From Bacillota bacterium (GTDB taxonomy: Bacteria; Bacillota; Limnochordia; Darwinibacteriales; Darwinibacteriaceae), in contig DURQ01000057.1 in assembly GCA_012840725.1 (NCBI GenBank), positions 1 to 42,332 on the forward strand: 42,332 nucleotides of DNA. Direction: 5' to 3'. Below, piece after piece: positions 1,458 to 23,668 of this stretch. Each line of letters begins with the position of its first letter. Positions within the stretch are counted from its first letter, which is position 1. Both the position numbers and the translations under genes were made by a program. Under the pieces are notes generated by a model, which saw only the letters and a list, made by a program, of their open reading frames with translations, did no database searches and was not told the DNA's origin.

Positions 1458-1615
1458 CAGCCCGCAGGAACTTTTTTTGATTTTTCGGTGACGACCCTCG
1501 TTGCGGATTTCGCCAATTTGACCGTGTGGCTGCCTAAGGTTGTTGGTCCATGGGAGATTACCGTTGAGCTTGGCGGCTCCAAGCGCGCTTAGTTCACTCA
1601 AACACCATATTCCTG

Positions 1616-1643
1616 TTGACGGAAGCAGTAGGTATGGTATCCT
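1616..1643 (+). promoter_or_regulatory. Promoter of the FMN-binding protein gene
   Basis: TTGACG (1616-1621), a 16-nt spacer and TATCCT (1638-1643) lie about 107 nt before the chosen start codon. The stretch between this promoter and the TetR promoter (about 1458-1615) holds only a 34-codon open frame without a Shine-Dalgarno sequence. Confidence 0.5.
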
Positions 1644-4023: not shown

Positions 4024-4914
4024 CGCCAGGTTCGTGATCCTCCAATCCGTAGTCATGTACCGATATCCTTTTTCTCGCATCATACGGCAGCCCGCGTTCA
4101 TAAGGCTCTGGCCAACGCCGCACCGTCTGTAGCCTTCCAGGGTGCCTGCCACAACCAACTCCACGCAGTGATCCGGTACCATCACACCTGGGGAAGCTGT
4201 GTCATACATGTGGAATCCCACGGCCTGTCCGTCCTTTTCGGCGAGGAGCACCACGGTATCCGGGTCTTCTAGAGAACGCCTAAACCCTTCCCGAATATCT
4301 GCCAACACCTCTGGGAAGACTGGCATGAAGGCCGGCGCAGTGTTCTGGTATTTGGAGATGATACTGGACATGCGGGCCATCACATCGCCGTCCTCCTTGG
4401 TCGCCAGCCTGATCTCTACGTTAGCATTTCTGAACGGCCTGTACTCTTCCAGATCCAATACGGCATAGACTTGCTCGATGCCGAAGCTCAATCTAGAAAA
4501 TGCGTCCAGGTATGAGGAATCTGCAAGAGGTACATAGGCAGAGTGGGTAAAGCAGCCGCGTTCCAGCCACAGAACCGACGCCTCAGCATATAAATGCCGT
4601 ATCAGCTCTGCTGGTTGGCCCGCTGAGATGGCCGCACCCTCATAGGGGATTGCGACGCACCTTCCGCTTCTGGTGTCGATCCGGATCATCCCAACAAGAT
4701 AGCCAACGAGCTGGCCATTTTGGATGGCTCCAACCCCCAGAGCACTGCCGCTTGCGAGCATCTCCCGCAGTCGTCCACTGATCCGCTCCATCTGCAGGAA
4801 GCTGTTCTTAAGGAATGGGAACAGTTGAGACTCATGTTCCTGCCGTCGCATGAGGAGATCAACCATGCTCGATATGTCTTGGTCAGTTATTGTTCTGAAC
4901 AGATAGTCTTCCAA
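3907..4914 (-). CDS. GNAT family N-acetyltransferase with two GNAT domains
   Basis: A 335-aa protein with two acetyltransferase folds. The N-terminal half (about 5-150) is degenerate. The C-terminal half (about 165-320) has the acetyl-CoA loop motif GYRRCGVGQSLM (R-x-x-G-x-G) followed by a TTDWRITNLASSTFW.KCGF segment typical of the final GNAT strands. The start is TTG 4914, preceded by AAGGAGGG at 6 nt, which is much better than any later ATG. Acceptor unknown. Its 3' end abuts an unrelated signal-peptide remnant on the opposite strand, marking a probable junction. It is monocistronic. Confidence 0.88.
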   Translation of the reverse strand: MEDYLFRTITDQDISSMVDLLMRRQEHESQLFPFLKNSFLQMERISGRLREMLASGSALGVGAIQNGQLVGYLVGMIRIDTRSGRCVAIPYEGAAISAGQPAELIRHLYAEASVLWLERGCFTHSAYVPLADSSYLDAFSRLSFGIEQVYAVLDLEEYRPFRNANVEIRLATKEDGDVMARMSSIISKYQNTAPAFMPVFPEVLADIREGFRRSLEDPDTVVLLAEKDGQAVGFHMYDTASPGVMVPDHCVELVVAGTLEGYRRCGVGQSLMNAGCRMMREKGYRYMTTDWRITNLASSTFWPKCGFRPLAYRMARVIDPNYAWANVNNPCIQQF

Positions 4915-5025
4915 ACCTGACCCTCCTTACCTAGCCAACGATCCTGGCCGGCCTTAAGTAACCAAAGTGACGTGGACGGCAGACGTGCGATGGGTATCCC
5001 CAAAGCAACATTTCACCTGCAGTTG

Positions 5026-5493
5026 TTATGGCAAGTATTCCTGCTTGACTCGAGTCGCTTTCTTGTTATCCACGTCTAGATAGTCAATATAGGGCACTGA
5101 ATCGATGTACTTCCACATAGTGATGAGCTCTGCTGCTACCGCGATAACTACCTCACCAGGGAGCTTCGTGTATCTGTCAAAAGAATCCCCATGGGACTCC
5201 TTGTACAATCGGATGAACTCTTCGTTTCCTGGTGCGAAGGGGTTTCCCGCAATAGTGGCGATCCCCTCAACCTGCACGTTGTTCCAGCACAGAGCCACCC
5301 TGTTGTTTTCCCGTATCTGCTTGTACTTCAGGTAATCTTCATGGGTCTGGAAGTAGATCTTGAGTCCGCTGTTCACGATGCTTACTGATCTAGCAGTGAC
5401 TCTATCGTGGGAGGAGGTGGCCAGGACCCAAATCTTGTTGCTGCTCAGATACCCCACGATGTCCCCCAATAGCAGATCGTAGTCAAGTTCCAC
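5026..5493 (-). CDS. Pyridoxamine 5'-phosphate oxidase-fold flavoprotein
   Basis: About 155 aa with the split-barrel PPOX fold: an ILLGDIVGYL-type first helix, a strand KIWVLATSSHDRVTARSV that usually contacts FMN phosphate, then IYFQTHEDYLKYKQIRENNRVALC typical of the general-stress/PPOX family. The frame is open further upstream to 5574, but those residues look non-coding. GTG 5493 with AAGGGA about 10 nt upstream is my preferred start, with some uncertainty. It resembles PPOX proteins that bind FMN or F420 or act as detoxifying reductases; the substrate cannot be read from the sequence. It stands alone between a GNAT gene and a divergent plus-strand pair. Confidence 0.8.
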   Translation of the reverse strand: MELDYDLLLGDIVGYLSSNKIWVLATSSHDRVTARSVSIVNSGLKIYFQTHEDYLKYKQIRENNRVALCWNNVQVEGIATIAGNPFAPGNEEFIRLYKESHGDSFDRYTKLPGEVVIAVAAELITMWKYIDSVPYIDYLDVDNKKATRVKQEYLP

Positions 5494-5823
5494 ACAATGG
5501 ACTTCCCTTGCTTCCACAGCAGCCTTCCCTCCCTGACATTGGCCGCTGCGGTGGATTCTCCGAGATGACTCCAAGGTACCTTTATGCCGCGCTTCACCCT
5601 ACTTCGCTTGCCCAAGGATATTCCCTGCCTTCCGTGGAGGCCAAAGGCAGTCTGTGAGCTGAGTTTGTTACATAGAGGAACAAGTCACGGGCGCGGCGCA
5701 AAAAGCCTCTGCTGGCAGGAGCACTCTGCGCGCTTCCCAAAAGTACAAGGGAACTTGCCGCAGAACTTGTGATCATAGTCCTGCGGGACAGTGCGGTCCC
5801 GTATCGAAGGCGAGGTCGAATCG
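5494..5823. other. Intergenic region without a recognisable gene
   Basis: This is the divergent interval between the PPOX gene and the pRiA4b-like gene. Short open frames on both strands lack ribosome sites and protein-like composition. I see no clear promoter or repeat. Confidence 0.5.
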
Positions 5824-6702
5824 ATGGAAGGTTACCAGCTGAGGATTGCCCTGAAGGAAATACCAGCTGTTTGGAGGAGGGTTCGAGTTCCAGCGGGGAT
5901 CACGTTTCGCACTCTGCACCGGGTTATACAGTTCGCCATGGGGTGGCAGGACTGCCATCTCCATGATTTTTCCAGTGACGATGATCCCACTGTCTACACC
6001 GACAACTCGGAGGCAATTGAGGAATACGAGTACTACCTGAAAAACCCGGAAGAACTAGCACGAGTTCATGAGGTCTATCCTCGAGACGCCGATGAAATCG
6101 AGCGGCAGCGTGAAGATCGACAGCATCCTCCAGCGGTCCGGCAGGCTAAAGTATGTGTATGACCTGGGGGATGAGTGGGAACATGAAGTGGTCCTGGAGG
6201 ATGTGGTCGATCTTGCGAACGCTTTCCCCGTATGCATAGGAGCCGGTGAAGCATGCCCGCCGGAAGATGTTGGTGGACCGTCCGGATACATGGACTTTTT
6301 GGAGGCATGGCATGATCCTCGGCATGAAGACCACAAGAACTCTGTCATGTGGGCCACTTCGTACTGTACACTGAAGGCTATGAGCCAATCGACCCGTTCC
6401 ACTTGGGGTATCTTCTGTCATTCATCCAGCGCTACGGAGGAAGGGAACGGGAGGTCTCGTTCTTCAGTGACCGTTTACTGGAACTCTTCCCCGACTTTTT
6501 GGATCGTTACTCGGAGCGCTATCGATCGGAAGAAGTCGCCAAACAGGCATTCAGCGGGTACCTTTACAACAGGATCTTCAGCCGCTTGCTGGCTGAACTC
6601 GGACTCGTAGAGACAAGAGAGGTCAAGGGAAGCACCTACTCGGACAACAAATACTTGATCCGCAGGACAGAGTTGTTTGATCAAGTGTTCGCGGTTTGGT
6701 AG
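5824..6702 (+). pseudogene. Plasmid pRiA4b ORF-3-like protein gene, interrupted by two frameshifts
   Basis: Three consecutive frames together give one pRiA4b ORF-3 family protein. Frame one (from ATG 5824, SD GAGG at 8 nt) encodes the N-terminal domain YQLRIALKEIPAVWRRV to HDFSSDD. The second frame carries VKIDSILQRSG and YVYDLGDEWEHEVVLEDV through GGPSGYMDFLEAW. A return to the first frame gives YEPIDPFHLGYLL and a C-terminal helical region to the stop at 6702. The shifts lie near 6090-6115 (+1) and 6345-6365 (-1). The reading frame is restored and the C-terminus looks intact, so the gene is either recently broken or affected by sequence errors. The family's function is unknown; members often travel with mobile elements. 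Confidence 0.8.
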
Positions 6703-17836: not shown

Positions 17837-17864
17837 GCTGATCGAAATGGAAAGGATGCCGGCA

Positions 17865-20081
17865 ATGGGTCGTTATGCGGTTGGGTTAATGTCGGGTACA
17901 TCGCTTGATGGAATTGATGCCGCCTTGGTGCACGTGGGAGAGCGCCCAGGCGACATCTCTTTAGTGCACTTTCTCACTCTTCCTTACACCCCCGAACAGA
18001 GAACGGCCCTCCTGCGCCTCTGCCAGCCTGGAGAGTCATCGGTGGCCGAGATCTGCGCCATGAACTTCGAGCTTGGCGAATTGTTCGCAGCGGCGGTCAA
18101 GCAGCTCTTGGCCGAAGCGGGCTTCGGGCCGGAACAGATCGCCGTGATCGGCTCCCACGGGCAGACCATTTACCACATTCCAGGCCGTTCCACCCTGCAG
18201 ATCGGTGAACCGGCAGTGATTGCAAACCGGACGGGGATCACCACGGTGGCCGACTTCCGCCCTGCAGATATTGCCGCAGGGGGCCAGGGGGCGCCGCTCA
18301 TCCCTTACTTCGATCAGATCATGTTTGGCAGTTCCGATGGCCTGACTGCGGTGCAGAACATCGGCGGGATCGGGAATGTCACCCTTGTTGGCCGCCAGGC
18401 AGACCAGCTGCCCTGCATCGCCTTTGACACCGGCCCTGGGAACATGGTGATCGACGCCATCGTTCGGCTGATGACAGACGGCGCCTTAAGCTTCGACGAG
18501 GGTGGAAGACTCGCTGCCCAGGGCCGGGTAAACCACGAGCTTCTAGCGCGGCTTATGAGCCATCCCTACTTCAGCGAGCTTCCTCCTAAGACTACGGGGC
18601 GTGAAGTGTTTGGCTCGGCGTTCAGCACAGAGCTCTGGCACAAGAGCGGCCTTTCGTCCTGGGACCTGCTGGCCACCGTCACCGCCTTCACAGCAGAAAG
18701 CATAACTGACCAGTACCGCCGCTTTGTGGCCCCATACGGAGAAATTGAGCGGGTGATTGTCGGCGGTGGAGGGAGCCACAATGACACTCTCCTCAGTATG
18801 CTGCGGGAGCGGCTGAACTGCCCCGTCTATGTCCACGAAGACTTCGGGATATCCAGTGATGCGAAAGAGGCCATGGCCTTTGCCCTCATGGCCCTGGCCA
18901 CCCTGGACGGGAAGAGCAGCAATGTCCCCCGGGCGACGGGCGCACGGATGCCCGCTGTTTTGGGAAAAACCGTGCTGCCCGAAAGGCAGAAATCCCTGGG
19001 GAGAGTGGGAAGTGAGAAGGAGGCCTTGAGCCTGCAGTCGTTTAGGCTCGTGGAGGAATTTGTGCAGAAGCGCAATGCCTCGGGCGCCGTGGCCATGGTG
19101 AGCTATCGCGGAGTAGAGTATGGGCCCGCGGCCTTCGGCCATGTGGGCTTTTTCCCCGGGGCTGAGCCGGTCACACCAGAGAGCATCTTTGACCTCGCCT
19201 CCCTTACCAAGGTTGTGGGCACCACCACAGTAGTCCTGCAGCTCCTCGAGGAAGGCGTGCTGGACCTCCAGGCAGAGGTGGGAGAACTCCTAAGCCATGT
19301 TCCGGCAGACAAGGCCAGAATCACGCTTGAGCGGCTGCTCAGCCACACTTCGGGGCTTCCTGCCTGGGCGCCCCTCTACCAGCTGGCCGCAACGCCTCAA
19401 GAGGTCGTGCCGGAACTTCTGAAGCTGCCGATGGAGTATGAGCCGGGCACGCAGGTGGTTTACTCCTGCATGGGTTACATCCTCTTGGGCCACATTCTGG
19501 AGACGGTAACCGGCACTCCCCTCAAGGAACTGATCCAGCAGAGGGTGATAGAGCCTCTGGATCTCAAGGACACCTGTTACAACCCTCCCGAGGCTGTACT
19601 GCCCCGGGTGGTATATACCGAATGGTGTGTCCGCAGGAAAGAGTTTCTGCGGGGGACAGTACATGATGAAAATGCGCAGGCTTTGGGCGGAGTCAGCGCC
19701 AACGCGGGGCTCTTTTCCACAGCCCGTGATCTGGCCAAGTTCGCCCAGATGATCCTGAACAGGGGAGAGATCAATGGGAAGAGGCTGCTGAACGACAGCA
19801 CTTTCGAATTGCTCAGCAAGTGTTTCACTGAGGGGCTGAATGAGCGCCGGACCTTGGGCTGGCTGCTGCACCAGAAACAAGGATCCTCGGGGGGCGGGCT
19901 CCTTTCTCCCTCAGCCATCGGCCATACCGGGTTTACCGGAACATCGCTCTGGATCGACAGAGAGCAGGAACTTTTTGTGATCCTCTTGACCAACAGGGTT
20001 CATCCGGTGCGGACCAATGACGCGATTATCCGTTTCAGGCCAGCTTTCCACGATGCGGTTGTCAGGGAATTGACACAGTAG
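17865..20081 (+). CDS. Fusion of anhydro-MurNAc kinase (AnmK) with an AmiE-like serine hydrolase
   Basis: A 738-aa two-domain protein in one uninterrupted frame. Residues 1-about 370 are a complete AnmK kinase: YAVGLMSGTSLDGIDAAL, IGSHGQTIYH, VADFRPADIAAGGQGAPL, NIGGIGNVT, FDTGPGNM and VGGGGSHN. Residues about 385-738 are a penicillin-binding/beta-lactamase-fold hydrolase: nucleophile motif SLTK (S446-K449), second motif YSC at 533-535 in place of Tyr-x-Asn, and HTG at 687-689. B. subtilis AmiE (MurNAc-L-Ala amidase) belongs to this fold and sits in the same mur/nag cluster, so the half may remove peptide from MurNAc. No signal peptide is present. ATG 17865 has GGAAAGGA 8 nt upstream. Other esterase activities remain possible. 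Confidence 0.9.
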   Translation: MGRYAVGLMSGTSLDGIDAALVHVGERPGDISLVHFLTLPYTPEQRTALLRLCQPGESSVAEICAMNFELGELFAAAVKQLLAEAGFGPEQIAVIGSHGQTIYHIPGRSTLQIGEPAVIANRTGITTVADFRPADIAAGGQGAPLIPYFDQIMFGSSDGLTAVQNIGGIGNVTLVGRQADQLPCIAFDTGPGNMVIDAIVRLMTDGALSFDEGGRLAAQGRVNHELLARLMSHPYFSELPPKTTGREVFGSAFSTELWHKSGLSSWDLLATVTAFTAESITDQYRRFVAPYGEIERVIVGGGGSHNDTLLSMLRERLNCPVYVHEDFGISSDAKEAMAFALMALATLDGKSSNVPRATGARMPAVLGKTVLPERQKSLGRVGSEKEALSLQSFRLVEEFVQKRNASGAVAMVSYRGVEYGPAAFGHVGFFPGAEPVTPESIFDLASLTKVVGTTTVVLQLLEEGVLDLQAEVGELLSHVPADKARITLERLLSHTSGLPAWAPLYQLAATPQEVVPELLKLPMEYEPGTQVVYSCMGYILLGHILETVTGTPLKELIQQRVIEPLDLKDTCYNPPEAVLPRVVYTEWCVRRKEFLRGTVHDENAQALGGVSANAGLFSTARDLAKFAQMILNRGEINGKRLLNDSTFELLSKCFTEGLNERRTLGWLLHQKQGSSGGGLLSPSAIGHTGFTGTSLWIDREQELFVILLTNRVHPVRTNDAIIRFRPAFHDAVVRELTQ

Positions 20082-20166
20082 GGAGAGCCCGGGGATGGCA
20101 GGAGAATTCACCCAACCGGTGGAACTGCTTCAGCAATCTGCCGCGTGCTAACGCTCTGGAGGGACT

Positions 20167-20664
20167 ATGAAAATGACCAGGTTTGAAGAAGGGCTGCAGC
20201 TGATCGAAGAAAGATGCGGAAATGGGAAAGACAATGTCATATCCCTTGCGACCATCGCCTTGGAACCAAATGCAGAAGGCAGCCCCCGGCCCTATGTCCG
20301 AGAAGTGGATGCGTTTTATGAAGATGGTGTGTTTTACATCACCACTTGGGCCCAATCCACAAAAATGCAGCAGATAGCCCGCAACCCAGAAGTTGCCTTC
20401 GCGGTCAGCGGGCAGTGGTTTTCGGGCAACGGGATAGGGGAGAACCTCGGCTGGGTGCTGGATCCGAAGAATGCCTCCCTGAGGGCAAAACTCAGGGAAG
20501 CCTTTGCTCCGTGGTACGATTTTGCCAACAACGAGAGTGACGAGAACTGCGTCATCCTGGCGATCCGCATCACCAGAGCGACAGTGATCAAGGATCACCA
20601 CGCGGTGGTTTACCACATGGACTTCTTGAACAAGGTGGAGACGGAGGAAGGAAGGATTAAGTAA
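20167..20664 (+). CDS. Pyridoxamine 5'-phosphate oxidase family protein
   Basis: A 165-aa PPOX split-barrel protein: ISLATIALEPNAEGSPRPYVREVDAFYEDGVFYITTWAQSTKMQQIARNPEVAF is the usual strand-strand-helix with the FMN-binding region, followed by WVLDPKNASLRAKLREAF. ATG 20167 follows GGAGGG. It lies 85 nt after the AnmK fusion and could be a read-through member of that operon, though I see no functional link. It is not closely similar to the PPOX gene at 5026-5493. Cofactor and substrate are unknown. Confidence 0.85.
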   Translation: MKMTRFEEGLQLIEERCGNGKDNVISLATIALEPNAEGSPRPYVREVDAFYEDGVFYITTWAQSTKMQQIARNPEVAFAVSGQWFSGNGIGENLGWVLDPKNASLRAKLREAFAPWYDFANNESDENCVILAIRITRATVIKDHHAVVYHMDFLNKVETEEGRIK

Positions 20665-20706
20665 GAAAACGATCGGCAGGATCAACATATGTAAGGGGTT
20701 GACCTG

Positions 20707-21711
20707 GTGGAGCGAGAAGTAGAACTGCAGTTTTCCGATGGAGTACTATCTGACGCAGCCCGGCGCTTTGGTGTGGCCGCTGATTCTTTGAGGCGTTTAG
20801 GTGACTTTGAGAACTATGTGTACGAGGGCACGGTTGACGGCGTCAGCCGCATCCTCAGGCTGACCCACAGCTCACATCGAAGTACCGACATGGTCCTGGG
20901 AGAGCTGGAGTGGATCAATTGTCTTGCGGAAAATGGAGTCAGTGTGGCCAAAGCCTTTCGTTCAACTGCCGGGAACTTGGCGGAGGAGATCCGTGTAGGT
21001 GAAGACTACTTCGTCGCCAGCCTGTTTCAAAAGGCCAAGGGCAGATTGCTGGACCGCACGAATCCCGCAGAGCCAACCCGAGAAATGATCATCGAGTGGG
21101 GAAGAACGATCGGGAAGATGCACAGGGCGACGAAACTTTTCGAGCCATCTGAAGAAAGGTTCAGGAGGCCCCATTGGTTTGAGGACGATTTGATGTGCTG
21201 GGAAAAGTACCTCCCAAAGGAGGATGGGCACATTGTTGACATCGGTTATGCACTGCTGGACCATGCGAAGAGTCTGCCGAAATCAAAGGACAGCTACGGT
21301 CTGATCCACACCGATGTCCATCCAGGCAACTTCTTCGTCGATGGCAGCAGGATAACGGTCTTTGATTTCGATGACTGTTCTTACCAGTGGTTTGCGAGTG
21401 ATATAGCCATAGCCGTGTATTACACGATCTGGCTGCTGCGCGGCAGTTATCAGCAGGAGGAAAAAGACGCCTACGCCAAGTGGTTCCTGGAAAACTTCAT
21501 GGCTGGCTACAACGAGGAGAACACGCTCGACGGCTTCTGGCTGAACGAGATTCCTTTTTTCCTGAAGCTGAGAGACATCACCTTGTACACCGTTTTCCAC
21601 AAGAAGTTCGATCAGGACGGCCTGCAGAAATTCGCCAAGCTGCTTGAGGGACTCAGAACACGGATTGAGCGGGAAGTCCCTATCGTGGTTCTTGGCTCCT
21701 ATAGGGGTTGA
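20707..21711 (+). CDS. Aminoglycoside phosphotransferase (APH)-fold kinase
   Basis: A 334-aa protein kinase-like phosphotransferase. The catalytic loop reads LIHTDVHPGNFFVD (H-x-D-x-x-x-x-N, the Asp being the catalytic base), followed by the metal-binding VFDFDDCSYQWFASDIA. The N-terminal lobe has LGDFENYVYEG as glycine-poor loop and ILRLTHSSHRS with a strand where the ATP-binding Lys is usually found. GTG 20707 is preceded by AAGGGG. Such proteins phosphorylate aminoglycosides, macrolides, homoserine or choline-like substrates, and the sequence does not decide which. The neighbouring erm gene makes an antibiotic substrate possible but unproven. A strong terminator follows. Confidence 0.85.
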   Translation: MEREVELQFSDGVLSDAARRFGVAADSLRRLGDFENYVYEGTVDGVSRILRLTHSSHRSTDMVLGELEWINCLAENGVSVAKAFRSTAGNLAEEIRVGEDYFVASLFQKAKGRLLDRTNPAEPTREMIIEWGRTIGKMHRATKLFEPSEERFRRPHWFEDDLMCWEKYLPKEDGHIVDIGYALLDHAKSLPKSKDSYGLIHTDVHPGNFFVDGSRITVFDFDDCSYQWFASDIAIAVYYTIWLLRGSYQQEEKDAYAKWFLENFMAGYNEENTLDGFWLNEIPFFLKLRDITLYTVFHKKFDQDGLQKFAKLLEGLRTRIEREVPIVVLGSYRG

Positions 21712-21811: not shown

Positions 21812-22627
21812 TCAGCAGGCGTTTGACTTTCCCGACACGGTGTACGGGTTCTTTCCCAGCACATGGTGCCAATAGCATCGAAACAGGCAGAGCCACTGCA
21901 CGAAACAGATACTTGCCAAAGGAGTATCATGATGCAGACCAATGTCATGGCATACCTTCAGCAGCTGCGTTTTCGTGAAAAGGGAGGGCAACCCGGACTT
22001 CATGGCTCTGGTGACGAAGTGTGAATAGGCACGCCACTGGTTTCGCTGAACATCAGGCTCGCGCTTGCGCCTGAATTGCAGCAGCACGACATCGACTCCC
22101 GGCATGGGATGGAAGTCGTCCCTCCTGAAGTAGTAGACGATGCCCATGTCGAAGCGAGGCTTGATGAGAAGTGACTGCAGGGATTCGGAAGGCCTTCCCA
22201 AGAAACGTTTTGCCGCCCCCTTTTCCATGGTCAGCCACATCTCAACAGGAGGGTTCTCTGCTTCTGTAAGCTTTCGGACTATGTCCGTAGTAAAGCAGAA
22301 GGGGATACTCGAGAAAACCTTGTAAGCTCCATCCTTGGGCAGACGCCAGGTTAGGAAATCTTGATGGTACAACCGCACGTTCTCGGAATCTTGGAACCTT
22401 GTGGTCAAGGTGTTGTAGAGCCTGTTGTCGATCTCAACAGCGGAGACCAGTCCACAGGTAACCAGCAGACGCTTGGTGATATGACCTTTTCCAGGTCCGA
22501 TTTCGATCACGTGATCGTCTCTGTCCAAGCTTGTCAGGCGAATGACTCTATCTATCGTCTGGGAACTCGTAAGGAAATTTTGCGTTGCCCAAATTGGGCG
22601 ACATTTCTGCCGTTTGTTTTTGGACAC
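21812..22627 (-). CDS. erm: Erm family 23S rRNA adenine-N6 methyltransferase
   Basis: About 271 aa, of the KsgA/Erm family. SAM motifs: ATQNFLTSSQTIDRVIRLT, VIEIGPGKGHITKRLL (motif I), AVEIDNRL (motif II), LYHQDFLTW (motif III). Motif IV reads SSIPFCFTTDIV with Ser where many Erm proteins have Asn. EKGAAKRFLG and FHPMPGVDVVLLQF complete the family pattern. Erm dimethylates A2058 of 23S rRNA and gives MLS resistance. I chose GTG 22627 because AAGAGGTG sits 7 nt upstream; ATG 22657 has no ribosome site and overlaps the end of the attenuator. Transcription starts from its own promoter with a leader peptide and terminator, so it is probably drug-inducible. Confidence 0.9.
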   Translation of the reverse strand: MSKNKRQKCRPIWATQNFLTSSQTIDRVIRLTSLDRDDHVIEIGPGKGHITKRLLVTCGLVSAVEIDNRLYNTLTTRFQDSENVRLYHQDFLTWRLPKDGAYKVFSSIPFCFTTDIVRKLTEAENPPVEMWLTMEKGAAKRFLGRPSESLQSLLIKPRFDMGIVYYFRRDDFHPMPGVDVVLLQFRRKREPDVQRNQWRAYSHFVTRAMKSGLPSLFTKTQLLKVCHDIGLHHDTPLASICFVQWLCLFRCYWHHVLGKNPYTVSGKSNAC

Positions 22628-22659
22628 AAAAATACACCTCTTTCGGAATTTTCGCATCG

Positions 22660-22713
22660 AAAAAGGTGCCTCAAAGAAAACGCTGTTACGAGCGCTTCTT
22701 CTCAGGCACCTTT
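22660..22713 (-). terminator. Terminator-attenuator in the erm leader
   Basis: On the minus strand AAAGGTGCCT (22713-22704) pairs perfectly with AGGCACCTTT (22671-22662). Extra pairing inside includes GCGCT/AGCG, and the right arm ends in a run of five T. The left arm overlaps the stop codon of the leader ORF, so a ribosome stalled on the leader would block the terminator and allow erm transcription. Confidence 0.78.
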
Positions 22714-22741
22714 ATCTGCGAGTGCGAAAAATACCGAACAT
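22712..22741 (-). CDS. erm leader peptide MFGIFRTRR
   Basis: A nine-codon ORF starts at 22741 and its stop overlaps the left arm of the attenuator. The peptide contains Arg-Thr-Arg, an example of the Arg/Lys-x-Arg/Lys pattern at which macrolide-bound ribosomes stall. The ribosome site is weak (CAGAG 8 nt upstream). A second candidate in another frame runs from ATG 22761 to the stop at 22702 and encodes a 19-residue peptide containing CSVFFALADKGA. Its stop codon also lies in the attenuator. The sequence does not decide which is translated. Confidence 0.5.
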   Translation of the reverse strand: MFGIFRTRR

Positions 22742-22778
22742 AGGTGTAACTCTGCCCCCATGAGTGTCTTTGCCTCAT

Positions 22779-22807
22779 AGGATACCACAGTCTTCATCGG
22801 AGATCAA
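22779..22807 (-). promoter_or_regulatory. erm promoter
   Basis: On the minus strand TTGATC (22807-22802), a 17-nt spacer and TATCCT (22784-22779) predict a start near 22772, which would leave a leader of about 145 nt before the Erm GTG. Each box matches consensus at four of six positions. Confidence 0.5.
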
Positions 22808-22849: not shown

Positions 22850-23668
22850 TTACCGCTCTTGGCAGACCGGGCAGATATACGATGCCGTGCTGCCGGTTTT
22901 GATGGAGACTATGGCTTCTCCGCAGACCGGGCAGGGCTTGCCTTCCTTGTACCCAACCAAAAAGTCATCGGTCGTAAAGCCGCCTGATTGCCCGAAGAAG
23001 TCCTTTTCGTAAGCAAAGGTTCCCTTATCCCGTGAGTGGTTGAGTACCTCCCCCATGCTGTCATAGAGCCGCTTGATATCCCCATCATCCAGCTCCGATA
23101 CCTTCCTCTGCGGATGCAGGCGTGCTTTGAAAAGGATGTCGTGCATGTACATGTTGCCGATGCCGCTCACGTTCTTCTGATCCATCAAGAAGGCCTTGAC
23201 CTGCGTCTTCTTGCCTTTGACGAGCGCCAAAAAACGTTCAAACGTAAACCTTTCGTCAAACGGGTCCATGGCTATGCCCTTTGTGTTTGGCTCAGAGGCC
23301 AGTTCGTCGCCCTTTACAAGAAGAAGCTTGCCGAACCACCAAAAGCGGATCGTGTATCCGCAGCCATCTTCAAACACGACCTTGACTTGGTACTTTTCCG
23401 GTGTGTCCTTCTCGTCTTCGAAGAACAGCACATCGGCGCCCATCCCCAGGGAGAGGAGGATGTTCTCGTCGTTACTGAGCTCTGTGACTATCCACTTCCC
23501 TTTGTTCCAGACATCAGTGATCTCTGCACCGCTGACCCGCTGCGCGAATTCAACGGGCTGAACATTGGTGCATTTCTCCTGCAGAAGCTCGACAGAACTG
23601 ATGGTTCTCCCACATAGGGTTTCTCTCATCTGCCTCGACAGCCTATGGATCTCGGGCAATTCGGCCAT
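22850..23668 (-). CDS. Fpg/Nei family DNA glycosylase-like protein lacking the catalytic proline
   Basis: A 272-aa Fpg-fold protein. The N-terminus reads M-A-E-L-P-E-I: the Glu (E3 of the mature scheme) is kept, but the residue after Met is Ala instead of the Pro that forms the Schiff base in Fpg and Nei. The helix-two-turn-helix region (FLMDQKNVSGIGNMYMHDILFKARLHP) and the C-terminal zinc finger (CPVCGEAI ... YICPVCQ) are intact. ATG 23668 has AAAGGAG 8 nt upstream; earlier in-frame starts lie outside the family match. It is likely a lesion-binding protein or monofunctional variant. It is divergent from a small zinc-finger gene and lies upstream of erm. Confidence 0.87.
   Translation of the reverse strand: MAELPEIHRLSRQMRETLCGRTISSVELLQEKCTNVQPVEFAQRVSGAEITDVWNKGKWIVTELSNDENILLSLGMGADVLFFEDEKDTPEKYQVKVVFEDGCGYTIRFWWFGKLLLVKGDELASEPNTKGIAMDPFDERFTFERFLALVKGKKTQVKAFLMDQKNVSGIGNMYMHDILFKARLHPQRKVSELDDGDIKRLYDSMGEVLNHSRDKGTFAYEKDFFGQSGGFTTDDFLVGYKEGKPCPVCGEAIVSIKTGSTASYICPVCQER

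Follow-up and report, generated by a model that had tools for sequence, protein, structure and literature searches.

The window, which is the whole stretch of 42,332 nucleotides that was analysed, lies on a contig of a Bacillota draft genome (2.06 Mb, 84% complete). It carries an erm gene on the minus strand, with a leader region upstream. The erm product reads 271 amino acids from GTG 22627, begins MSKNKRQKC and stands behind AGAGGTG. ATG 22657 was rejected as the start, since it sits between the terminator and the Shine-Dalgarno sequence and the starts of the relatives align with GTG 22627. The product scored 223.4 bits against the broad NCBIfam Erm model NF000499 (cut-off 212; the score was computed on P0001, a longer reading of erm) and fell far under the cut-off of every named NCBIfam Erm exception model. 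It was 30-35% identical to ErmA, ErmB and ErmC, and 26-31% identical to class II Erms. The protein tree, whose KsgA row is a fragment, placed it among the ErmA/B/C-like rows at a position that is not fixed (3 of 14 inner branches were well supported). Judged from its sequence, the gene is an intact, divergent erm.

All 1746 plasmid records showed less than 60% identity to this Erm, and the best one listed was ErmC with 35%. Phage-borne relatives reached up to 31% among the best 20 of 27 records, and one pattern-based scan of viral contigs confirmed no Erm relative. Carriage of close relatives by phages or plasmids was therefore rejected for the collections searched (plasmid, phage and viral contigs). 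At the gathering score, Rfam gave within the window a tRNA only and no family match for the leader, and an Rfam family was set aside as its identity. An APH-family phosphotransferase gene (20707-21711, plus strand) adjoins erm and is convergent with it. A single ORF at 17847-20081 on the plus strand fuses anhydro-N-acetylmuramic acid kinase and beta-lactamase-family domains, near NamZ, SIS-domain and family 3 glycosidase genes.

The features of the leader region and erm are given below.

22802-22807, minus strand: -35 hexamer TTGATC, from the sequence; its position fits the strong promoters of four relatives
22779-22784, minus strand: -10 hexamer TATCCT, 17-nt spacer, from the sequence
22755-22759, minus strand: leader Shine-Dalgarno-like GGGGG, 13 nt before the leader ATG
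22742-22748, minus strand: anti-Shine-Dalgarno TACACCT, from the folds; pairs with AGGTGTA of erm (stem P1)
22712-22741, minus strand: leader ORF MFGIFRTRR, nine codons from ATG 22741 plus stop TAA; conserved in relatives
22719-22738, minus strand: middle stem P2, 5' arm (leader codons), from the fold and the arm-swap test
22718-22726, minus strand: Arg-Thr-Arg, predicted stall motif; predicted P-site codon Thr7 at 22723-22721
22704-22713, minus strand: terminator stem P3, left arm, overlapping the leader stop, from the sequence, the fold and the arm-swap test
22677-22698, minus strand: apical hairpin within the terminator, candidate pause hairpin, from the fold
22673-22678, minus strand: TTCTTT, which fits the NusG pause motif TTNTTT (motif match)
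22662-22671, minus strand: terminator stem P3, right arm, from the sequence, the fold and the arm-swap test
22660-22664, minus strand: T5 tract of the terminator, from the sequence; the first three T can also pair
22641-22659, minus strand: middle stem P2, 3' arm, from the fold and the arm-swap test
22635-22641, minus strand: erm Shine-Dalgarno AGAGGTG, paired in the rod, from the fold
21812-22627, minus strand: erm ORF, GTG start, 271 aa plus stop (NCBIfam NF000499); start fixed from relatives

The preliminary description of this region had named a promoter, a nine-residue leader with Arg-Thr-Arg and a perfect 10-bp stem overlapping the leader stop, and each of them was recovered here. The promoter matches 8 of 12 consensus bases, and in the same scan 234 of 2000 random window positions scored at least as well. 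It stands 37 nt before the leader start, and the strong promoters of L033 (10/12) and of L034, L058 and L066 (12/12 each) stand at 35-37 nt; L067 has a 12/12 promoter at 52 nt, and those of the other relatives score 7-9. The leader Shine-Dalgarno sequence is GGAGG in the other six elements of alignment A1 and GGGGG in the window. The arms of P3, AAAGGTGCCT (22713-22704) and AGGCACCTTT (22671-22662), form ten perfect pairs, and two bases of the leader stop codon lie inside the left arm. A stock terminator scan, which covers loops of 3-8 only, did not list this predicted terminator. An [RK]x[RK] upstream ORF with a terminator-like arm at its stop (pattern: 6-12 codons, a G+C-rich 7-bp arm at the stop and a T-rich tail) was found at a single place when both strands of the window were scanned, 22741, and none of 20 mononucleotide-shuffled windows had one. 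The 19-codon ORF in another frame, earlier put forward as an alternative leader, does exist at 22761-22702 but is not conserved; it was dropped, as among six relatives only L033 has a comparable frame, with a TTG start. An amino-acid starvation attenuator was also dropped, given the three Arg codons and the drug-resistance gene downstream.

To place the leader among its relatives, Erm homologues were picked by a protein search of named genome contigs, without regard to leaders, which gave 31 loci. Seven of them fell in the same Erm clade as the window; identity over the length was 48-62% for six, and the Erm of L058, truncated where its contig ends, showed 60% identity across 54 matched residues. 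The leader stood at the same place in six of the seven, with the peptides MCGIFRIRK, MCSIFRIRK, MSIIRIRNSK, MCASIRMRK (GTG start), MGAIRLRK (GTG start) and xAAIRLRK (GCG as first codon); the leader of L036 is without a usual start codon. Upstream of L038, whose Erm is 48% identical, neither such a leader nor a match to R1, a covariance model of seven class I erm leaders, was found. R1 also gave no match for the broken or partial clade Erms of G038 (in pieces in different frames) and G003 (an Erm tail only), nor for the distant Erm of G048 (L004). In a further clade member, L073 (G201, about 1501-1631, minus strand), the 5' half of the leader is missing, and what is left of it, the 3' half, is found downstream of a transposase-like ORF with rve and HTH_21 domains.

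Erm copies found later carry the leaders MFGIWFIRIR, MYASMRLRK, MGICFIRMR, MGIRFIRIR and MCASIRIRK. Including four leaders before rlmA genes, described below, 15 leaders with 14 different peptides were compared, and R-x-R was present in 15 of 15, which is partly a selection effect for the four rlmA leaders because they were found by models or by an R-x-R scan. The tables of 15 leave out L065 (element and erm identical to L033), the duplicates L069 and L070 (G405 and G431), L073 and L111-L115, which were the last to be found. The first Arg codon was CGC, CGT or CGG, and the second CGC, CGT, CGG or AGA. By this comparison, the Arg residues are kept while their codons drift synonymously.

The RNA 22780-22600 folds at -75.1 kcal/mol (z = -7.4), and 0 of 200 shuffles were as low. 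The elements fold into a single rod with P1 at the downstream Shine-Dalgarno sequence, P2 between the leader codons and the segment before that sequence, and P3 as the terminator. A hairpin with a T-tract (T5, T6 or TTTCTTT) follows right after the leader stop in all 15 elements, the ends being set by the analyst. AGAGGTG is invariant across the first seven elements, and the window fold pairs five of the six GAGGTG bases. Each of the 15 minimum-energy folds pairs at least four of the six core Shine-Dalgarno bases with the leader region, and 11 of the folds pair five or six. The pairing falls into two registers. In nine class I erm elements including the window, the Shine-Dalgarno sequence pairs with bases 1-7 nt ahead of the leader start; in two class II erm and four rlmA elements, the partner is inside the leader, at bases +5 to +10 counted from zero. 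According to the folds, the Shine-Dalgarno lock of the window's class is thus in a different register from that of the tlrB-type leaders.

The stems were compared by an alignment-free arm-swap duplex test, in which each 5' arm was set against its own and all other 3' arms with 20000 permutations. For ten erm elements, the P2 arms gave -14.5 with their own and -9.2 with foreign partners, and the P3 arms -15.3 and -9.2; in both cases 0 of 20000 permutations were as low. P1 is statistically the weakest stem (-9.0 own, -8.0 foreign, 105 of 20000). Without L037, the counts were 3 for P2, 0 for P3 and 550 for P1. With 15 elements, and also with the nine class I elements alone, P2 and P3 each stayed at 0 of 20000, while the six class II erm and rlmA elements alone gave 82 for P2 and 3297, which is not significant, for P3. 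The window's own arms ranked first of ten in all three stems. This bears on the idea that the copy in this genome has decayed and that its switch no longer works, as the 8/12 promoter, GGGGG and the erm remnants in G003 and G004 of the same genus might lead one to think. With that ranking, and with the leader ORF, R-x-R and the erm ORF all intact, we regard decay as very improbable.

Covariation was also scored in alignment A6 of 13 elements, which was fitted to the structure, so that the test leans towards the structure, and whose related sequences are not independent. In A6, 81% of the cells were paired (0 of 500 shuffles), and the covariation score was 0.405 compared with 0.220 when shuffled (0 of 500). 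Both sides had changed in 19 of 35 pairs, against 13.2 expected (1 of 500 shuffles), and paired cells fell to 41-54% when the partners were slid by 1-3 columns. RNAalifold on the MAFFT alignment A1 gave a covariation term of 0.06 and no middle stem, probably because MAFFT misaligns this stem.

The closest known parallel is the tlrB (yxjB) leader of Bacillus subtilis, for which the main text of PMC6851288 describes a leader peptide of nine residues with RYR at its end, a terminator that NusA assists and a Shine-Dalgarno-sequestering hairpin around the terminator. Tylosin-dependent stalling there places Tyr in the P site, and NusG pausing was reported as well; the terminator, the sequestering hairpin, the drug-dependent toeprint and the pausing are all experimental (PMC6851288). 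The window leader resembles it in several respects. Both leaders are short, of nine residues, with R-x-R at or next to the C terminus. In both, the base of the terminator overlaps the end of the leader and is nested in a Shine-Dalgarno-sequestering hairpin, which for the window is read from sequence and fold. No overlapping antiterminator was identified in either, and a pause hairpin stands at the apex, a candidate one in the window, where this role is proposed only by analogy with tlrB. The differences are that tlrB controls an RlmA(II) G748 methyltransferase, of a family unlike Erm, while the window element precedes erm; that tlrB has tandem stops, while one residue follows R-x-R in MFGIFRTRR; and that the window's Shine-Dalgarno sequence pairs before the leader start, while the four folded rlmA leaders pair inside the leader.

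With these parallels, we consider it likely that the element is a tlrB-like dual attenuator of transcription and translation before a divergent erm. Since the parts and their order agree between the window and tlrB, and the same toeprint rule is applied, we infer a double lock, transcription first and translation second, that one stalled ribosome would open. Without drug, the nine-codon leader would be translated and the ribosome released; the stem starting at the leader stop would then form and transcription would end at T5. Any read-through RNA would fold on into the rod, with the leader codons paired to the segment before erm and TACACCT to AGGTGTA, and the ribosome-binding site of erm would be hidden. 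With a macrolide or ketolide bound, the ribosome would stall with Thr7 in the P site and Arg8 awaited, a position predicted from the parallels with ErmDL and TlrB. The 15-16 nt toeprint rule would put the front edge of this ribosome at 22708-22707, so that it would cover the base of the left terminator arm, and with it six or seven of the ten P3 pairs. As the body of the ribosome would hold the leader codons, neither terminator nor rod could form, and erm would be transcribed and translated. For the window leader itself, we infer stalling, termination, read-through, the inducing drug and pausing in this way. Counting against the dual attenuator is the weakness of two signals in the window, the 8/12 promoter and the leader Shine-Dalgarno GGGGG rather than GGAGG.

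The preliminary description had favoured transcription attenuation, in which drug-dependent stalling prevents termination. The stalling part is backed by conservation (the leader in 6 of 7 relatives, R-x-R in 15 of 15), and the terminator stems with T-rich tails and co-varying arms agree with a transcriptional step; taken alone this account is incomplete, because the Shine-Dalgarno pairing in 15 of 15 folds suggests that translation attenuation is built in too. Attenuation of transcription only, of the ErmK/ErmD type and with the longer rod as incidental, would explain the hairpin and T-tract directly past the leader stop in every element and has precedents in erm(K), erm(D), erm(J) and mef(E)/mel, as stated in the article text of PMC4335068. 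However, covariation extends to the P2 arms beyond the terminator (0 of 20000), which a terminator alone would not need, and the Shine-Dalgarno pairing is kept with two-sided change, an A-U pair of P1 being G-C on both sides in two of seven sequences. We therefore hold this account to be unlikely.

The opposite simplification, attenuation of translation only as in ErmC, would have the rod hide the ribosome-binding site, with no termination, or pausing at most, at the inner stem and T-run. It draws on the main-text description of tlrB, where Term-seq ends in the leader are pause sites, not terminators, and basal termination without NusA is low (PMC6851288). Against it, all 15 elements have their T-tract and stem base positioned behind the leader stop, and the equivalent tlrB stem does terminate, four-fold better with NusA (PMC6851288). 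This account seems to us quite improbable.

Pausing may contribute to the dual attenuator. TTNTTT occurred in 8 of 15 elements including the window, compared with 1.9 expected by shuffling (the sequences are related and not independent); its place is the terminator's 3' half, where 4 of 4 rlmA, 3 of 9 class I and 1 of 2 class II elements have it, and it is missing in 7 of 15. The excess is only suggestive of NusG-type pausing, and the published account of the motif states that it is insufficient by itself for such pausing (PMC12288461). As to the inducer, ketolides stall mainly at R/K-x-R/K and macrolides more broadly, according to PMC8298421. On ErmDL, the R-x-R motif made a difference with telithromycin and none with erythromycin (PMC8298421). 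The inducer is not readable from the window peptide, because erythromycin caused no ribosome stalling on the TlrB leader (main text of PMC6851288).

Drug-stalled ribosomes free the hidden erm Shine-Dalgarno sequence in ermC and ermB, but these translational attenuators are not known to have a terminator at the leader stop, and their leader peptides are different. The erm(K), erm(D) and erm(J) genes of Bacillus share with the window an R-x-R leader (MTHSMRLRFPTLNQ for ErmK) and transcription attenuation of an erm, as given in the text of PMC4335068. These leaders are longer and run past R-x-R, whereas in the window one residue follows and the N terminus is unlike theirs. The mef(E)/mel (msrD) system combines the leader MTASMRLR with a terminator, and ASMRLR is common to it and to the leader MYASMRLRK of L067. 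It differs in its 327-nt 5' region, four inverted-repeat pairs and anti-attenuator and in its efflux/ABC-F operon (all from the text of PMC4335068). In vmlR, pausing, transcription attenuation and translation attenuation act together and a TTNTTT motif is present, but stalling occurs at initiation on the upstream ORF, there are separate hairpins with an antiterminator, and the gene is of the ABC-F type (article text of PMC9226507).

To see which genes carry the leader, two more covariance models were used besides R1: R2, from ten erm leaders including class II, and R3, from 11 erm leaders, again with class II, and two rlmA leaders. Searches of more than 40 genomes used strict filters and scored a part of the candidates per genome, so that their counts are lower bounds. 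At E <= 0.001 in the sampled genomes, the models from erm leaders matched before erm and rlmA/tlrB-type genes only. R1 at this threshold matched the window only in 72 genomes of the window's class (a lower bound); in a phylum sample it matched at least 5 of 398 genomes, in each case before erm. R2 matched at least 2 of 82 and 2 of 15 genomes of two other classes, each before erm, and at least 8 of 398 genomes of an overlapping phylum sample, six before erm and two before rlmA-type genes. Four of these six erm matches are training sequences or identical to one, and another is L073. The two rlmA-type matches are L072, with an open frame of 140 codons only, and L074; both contain PF21302. L074 scored 157 bits against the RlmA model NF008300 (cut-off 303), so that its assignment to G748 (RlmA(II)/TlrB) is based on the parallel with TlrB.

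In a family search, at least 44 of the 398 genomes contained PF21302, and 30 of the 46 listed matches were examined. Over these 30 loci plus L072 and L074, R2 gave E-values of 1.7e-6 for L072, 1.5e-5 for L074, 0.012 for L093 and 0.046 for L104, with one extra chance match inside L072 (E 6.8). A separate R-x-R scan of upstream ORFs, which could not place the gene in six rlmA loci, returned the same four loci and L078 and L079, whose ORFs have GTG or TTG starts and no model match. The leader of L093 is MIIQFIRYR, identical to the published TlrB peptide, and that of L104 is MGIRFIRIR, the same peptide as in the erm leader of L071. R3 found both of these held-out loci (L104, 9.1e-7; L093, 2.1e-5) and had no match at E < 0.7 in the other rlmA loci examined. 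In one more class, R3 matched at least 6 of 113 genomes, namely before erm (L111, L112), before rlmA (L074, which was in training, L114 and L115) and before an rlmA remnant (L113). In this remnant (G538), rlmA loses its frame after the zinc ribbon, and the leader MIAHIRLR still has a model match. Within the genus g145, the copies of one species stand before erm and those of three other species before rlmA. PF21302 had no match in the window's own genome (84% complete), and the gene under the leader there is erm, not rlmA(II).

As controls, five plasmid erm loci (ErmA, B, C, D and F) gave no match with R2 and two chance-level matches with R1 (E 0.63 and 2.6), neither at a leader; such classical controls are few, and several of the stretches are without an evident leader of their own. 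In L108, the only ErmD locus examined, R2 had no match and the R1 match was at chance level and inside the gene. No R-x-R upstream ORF was found in a 320-nt scan of L108, which makes it a weak control.

The question of descent was approached by pairwise alignment. The class II erm leaders L068 and L071 share 101 of 122 and 97 of 121 aligned bases with rlmA L104, in alignments that run from the leader AUG to just past the Shine-Dalgarno sequence and stop inside the included flanks. Their local scores were 102 and 86, and the shuffle maxima 25 and 28. On this sequence evidence, the class II erm and rlmA leaders are of common descent. Class I L066 and class II L068 are identical at 109 of 144 bases (score 52, shuffle maximum 28), and the window matches rlmA L072 at 27 of 30 bases over the Shine-Dalgarno sequence and start (score 40, shuffle maximum 25). 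The best R1 match lay at the leader in all four rlmA loci (L074, 8.9e-4; L072, 0.0092; L104, 0.076; L093, 0.15), and chance matches of R1 begin at E 0.55 and 0.63. L066 against L104 was no better than shuffles (score 22, shuffle maximum 31). The kinship of the window's class I with the rlmA leaders thus appears weaker but present, and membership of the tlrB attenuators by descent is likely for the element, though with less certainty for the window's class.

We lean, with some reserve, towards the view that the leader is a portable cassette swapped across Bacillota by two kinds of 23S rRNA methyltransferase gene that are not homologous, erm (A2058) and rlmA/tlrB (G748). Such a cassette would hold the leader ORF, the nested terminator and rod, the Shine-Dalgarno sequence and possibly also the opening codons (MSKN). 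Between class II erm and rlmA, the exchange is nearly demonstrated. To extend it to class I, where the window belongs, is bolder, because the Shine-Dalgarno lock of that class sits in the other register. Erm (MSKNK or MSKNR in five genes) and RlmA (MSKNK or MSKNN in L072, L074 and L113-L115) often start alike, as if the start region were part of the cassette.

The attenuation mechanism itself is ordinary for the field, and its parts are of known kinds. R-x-R transcription attenuation of erm is already known from the erm(D) class, as the text of PMC4335068 describes, and a combined lock on transcription and translation from tlrB and vmlR (main text of PMC6851288; article text of PMC9226507). 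As far as our searches show, what is new is the proposed dual attenuator on an erm and its sharing by two non-homologous 23S rRNA methyltransferase genes. The searches of open-licence PMC listings and main-text passages showed no report of a leader common to erm and tlrB. The main text of PMC6851288 makes no mention of ermB, ermC, ermD or ermK, and a survey of the regions upstream of erm genes has a single mention of tlrB in its text, as a further gene under stalling control (PMC11264731). This survey describes the upstream ORFs and palindromes of erm as diverse and independently evolved (PMC11264731); in contrast, the related attenuators found here span two Erm lineages (26-31% identical) and the unrelated rlmA, with what would be a tlrB-type double lock. 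If this is true, two resistance systems are linked by descent, a covariance model becomes available for finding inducible resistance in uncultured Bacillota, and natural leader variants can be used to ask which residues set drug specificity. If the exchange of cassettes is also true, a single kind of drug sensor serves two distinct chemistries of resistance.

The surroundings of erm were compared with genomes of the same genus. Contig C33 of G002 (4244-5982) matches 20149-21711 and 23558-23637 of the window; the APH-like gene that adjoins erm in the window is followed there by 95 bases and then by a stretch similar to the beginning of fpg in the window, and no match to erm or to the remainder of fpg was reported at this locus. 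Three other genomes, G003 (L119), G004 (L120) and G001 (L121), have a match of 48-59 bases to the 3' end of erm (window 21852-21910). G003 keeps an Erm tail of about 70 residues and G004 about 20 codons. These remnants suggest an earlier gain and loss of erm in the genus. The remnant loci of G004 and G001 have one neighbouring ORF in common, which we take to be sugar-phosphomutase-like.
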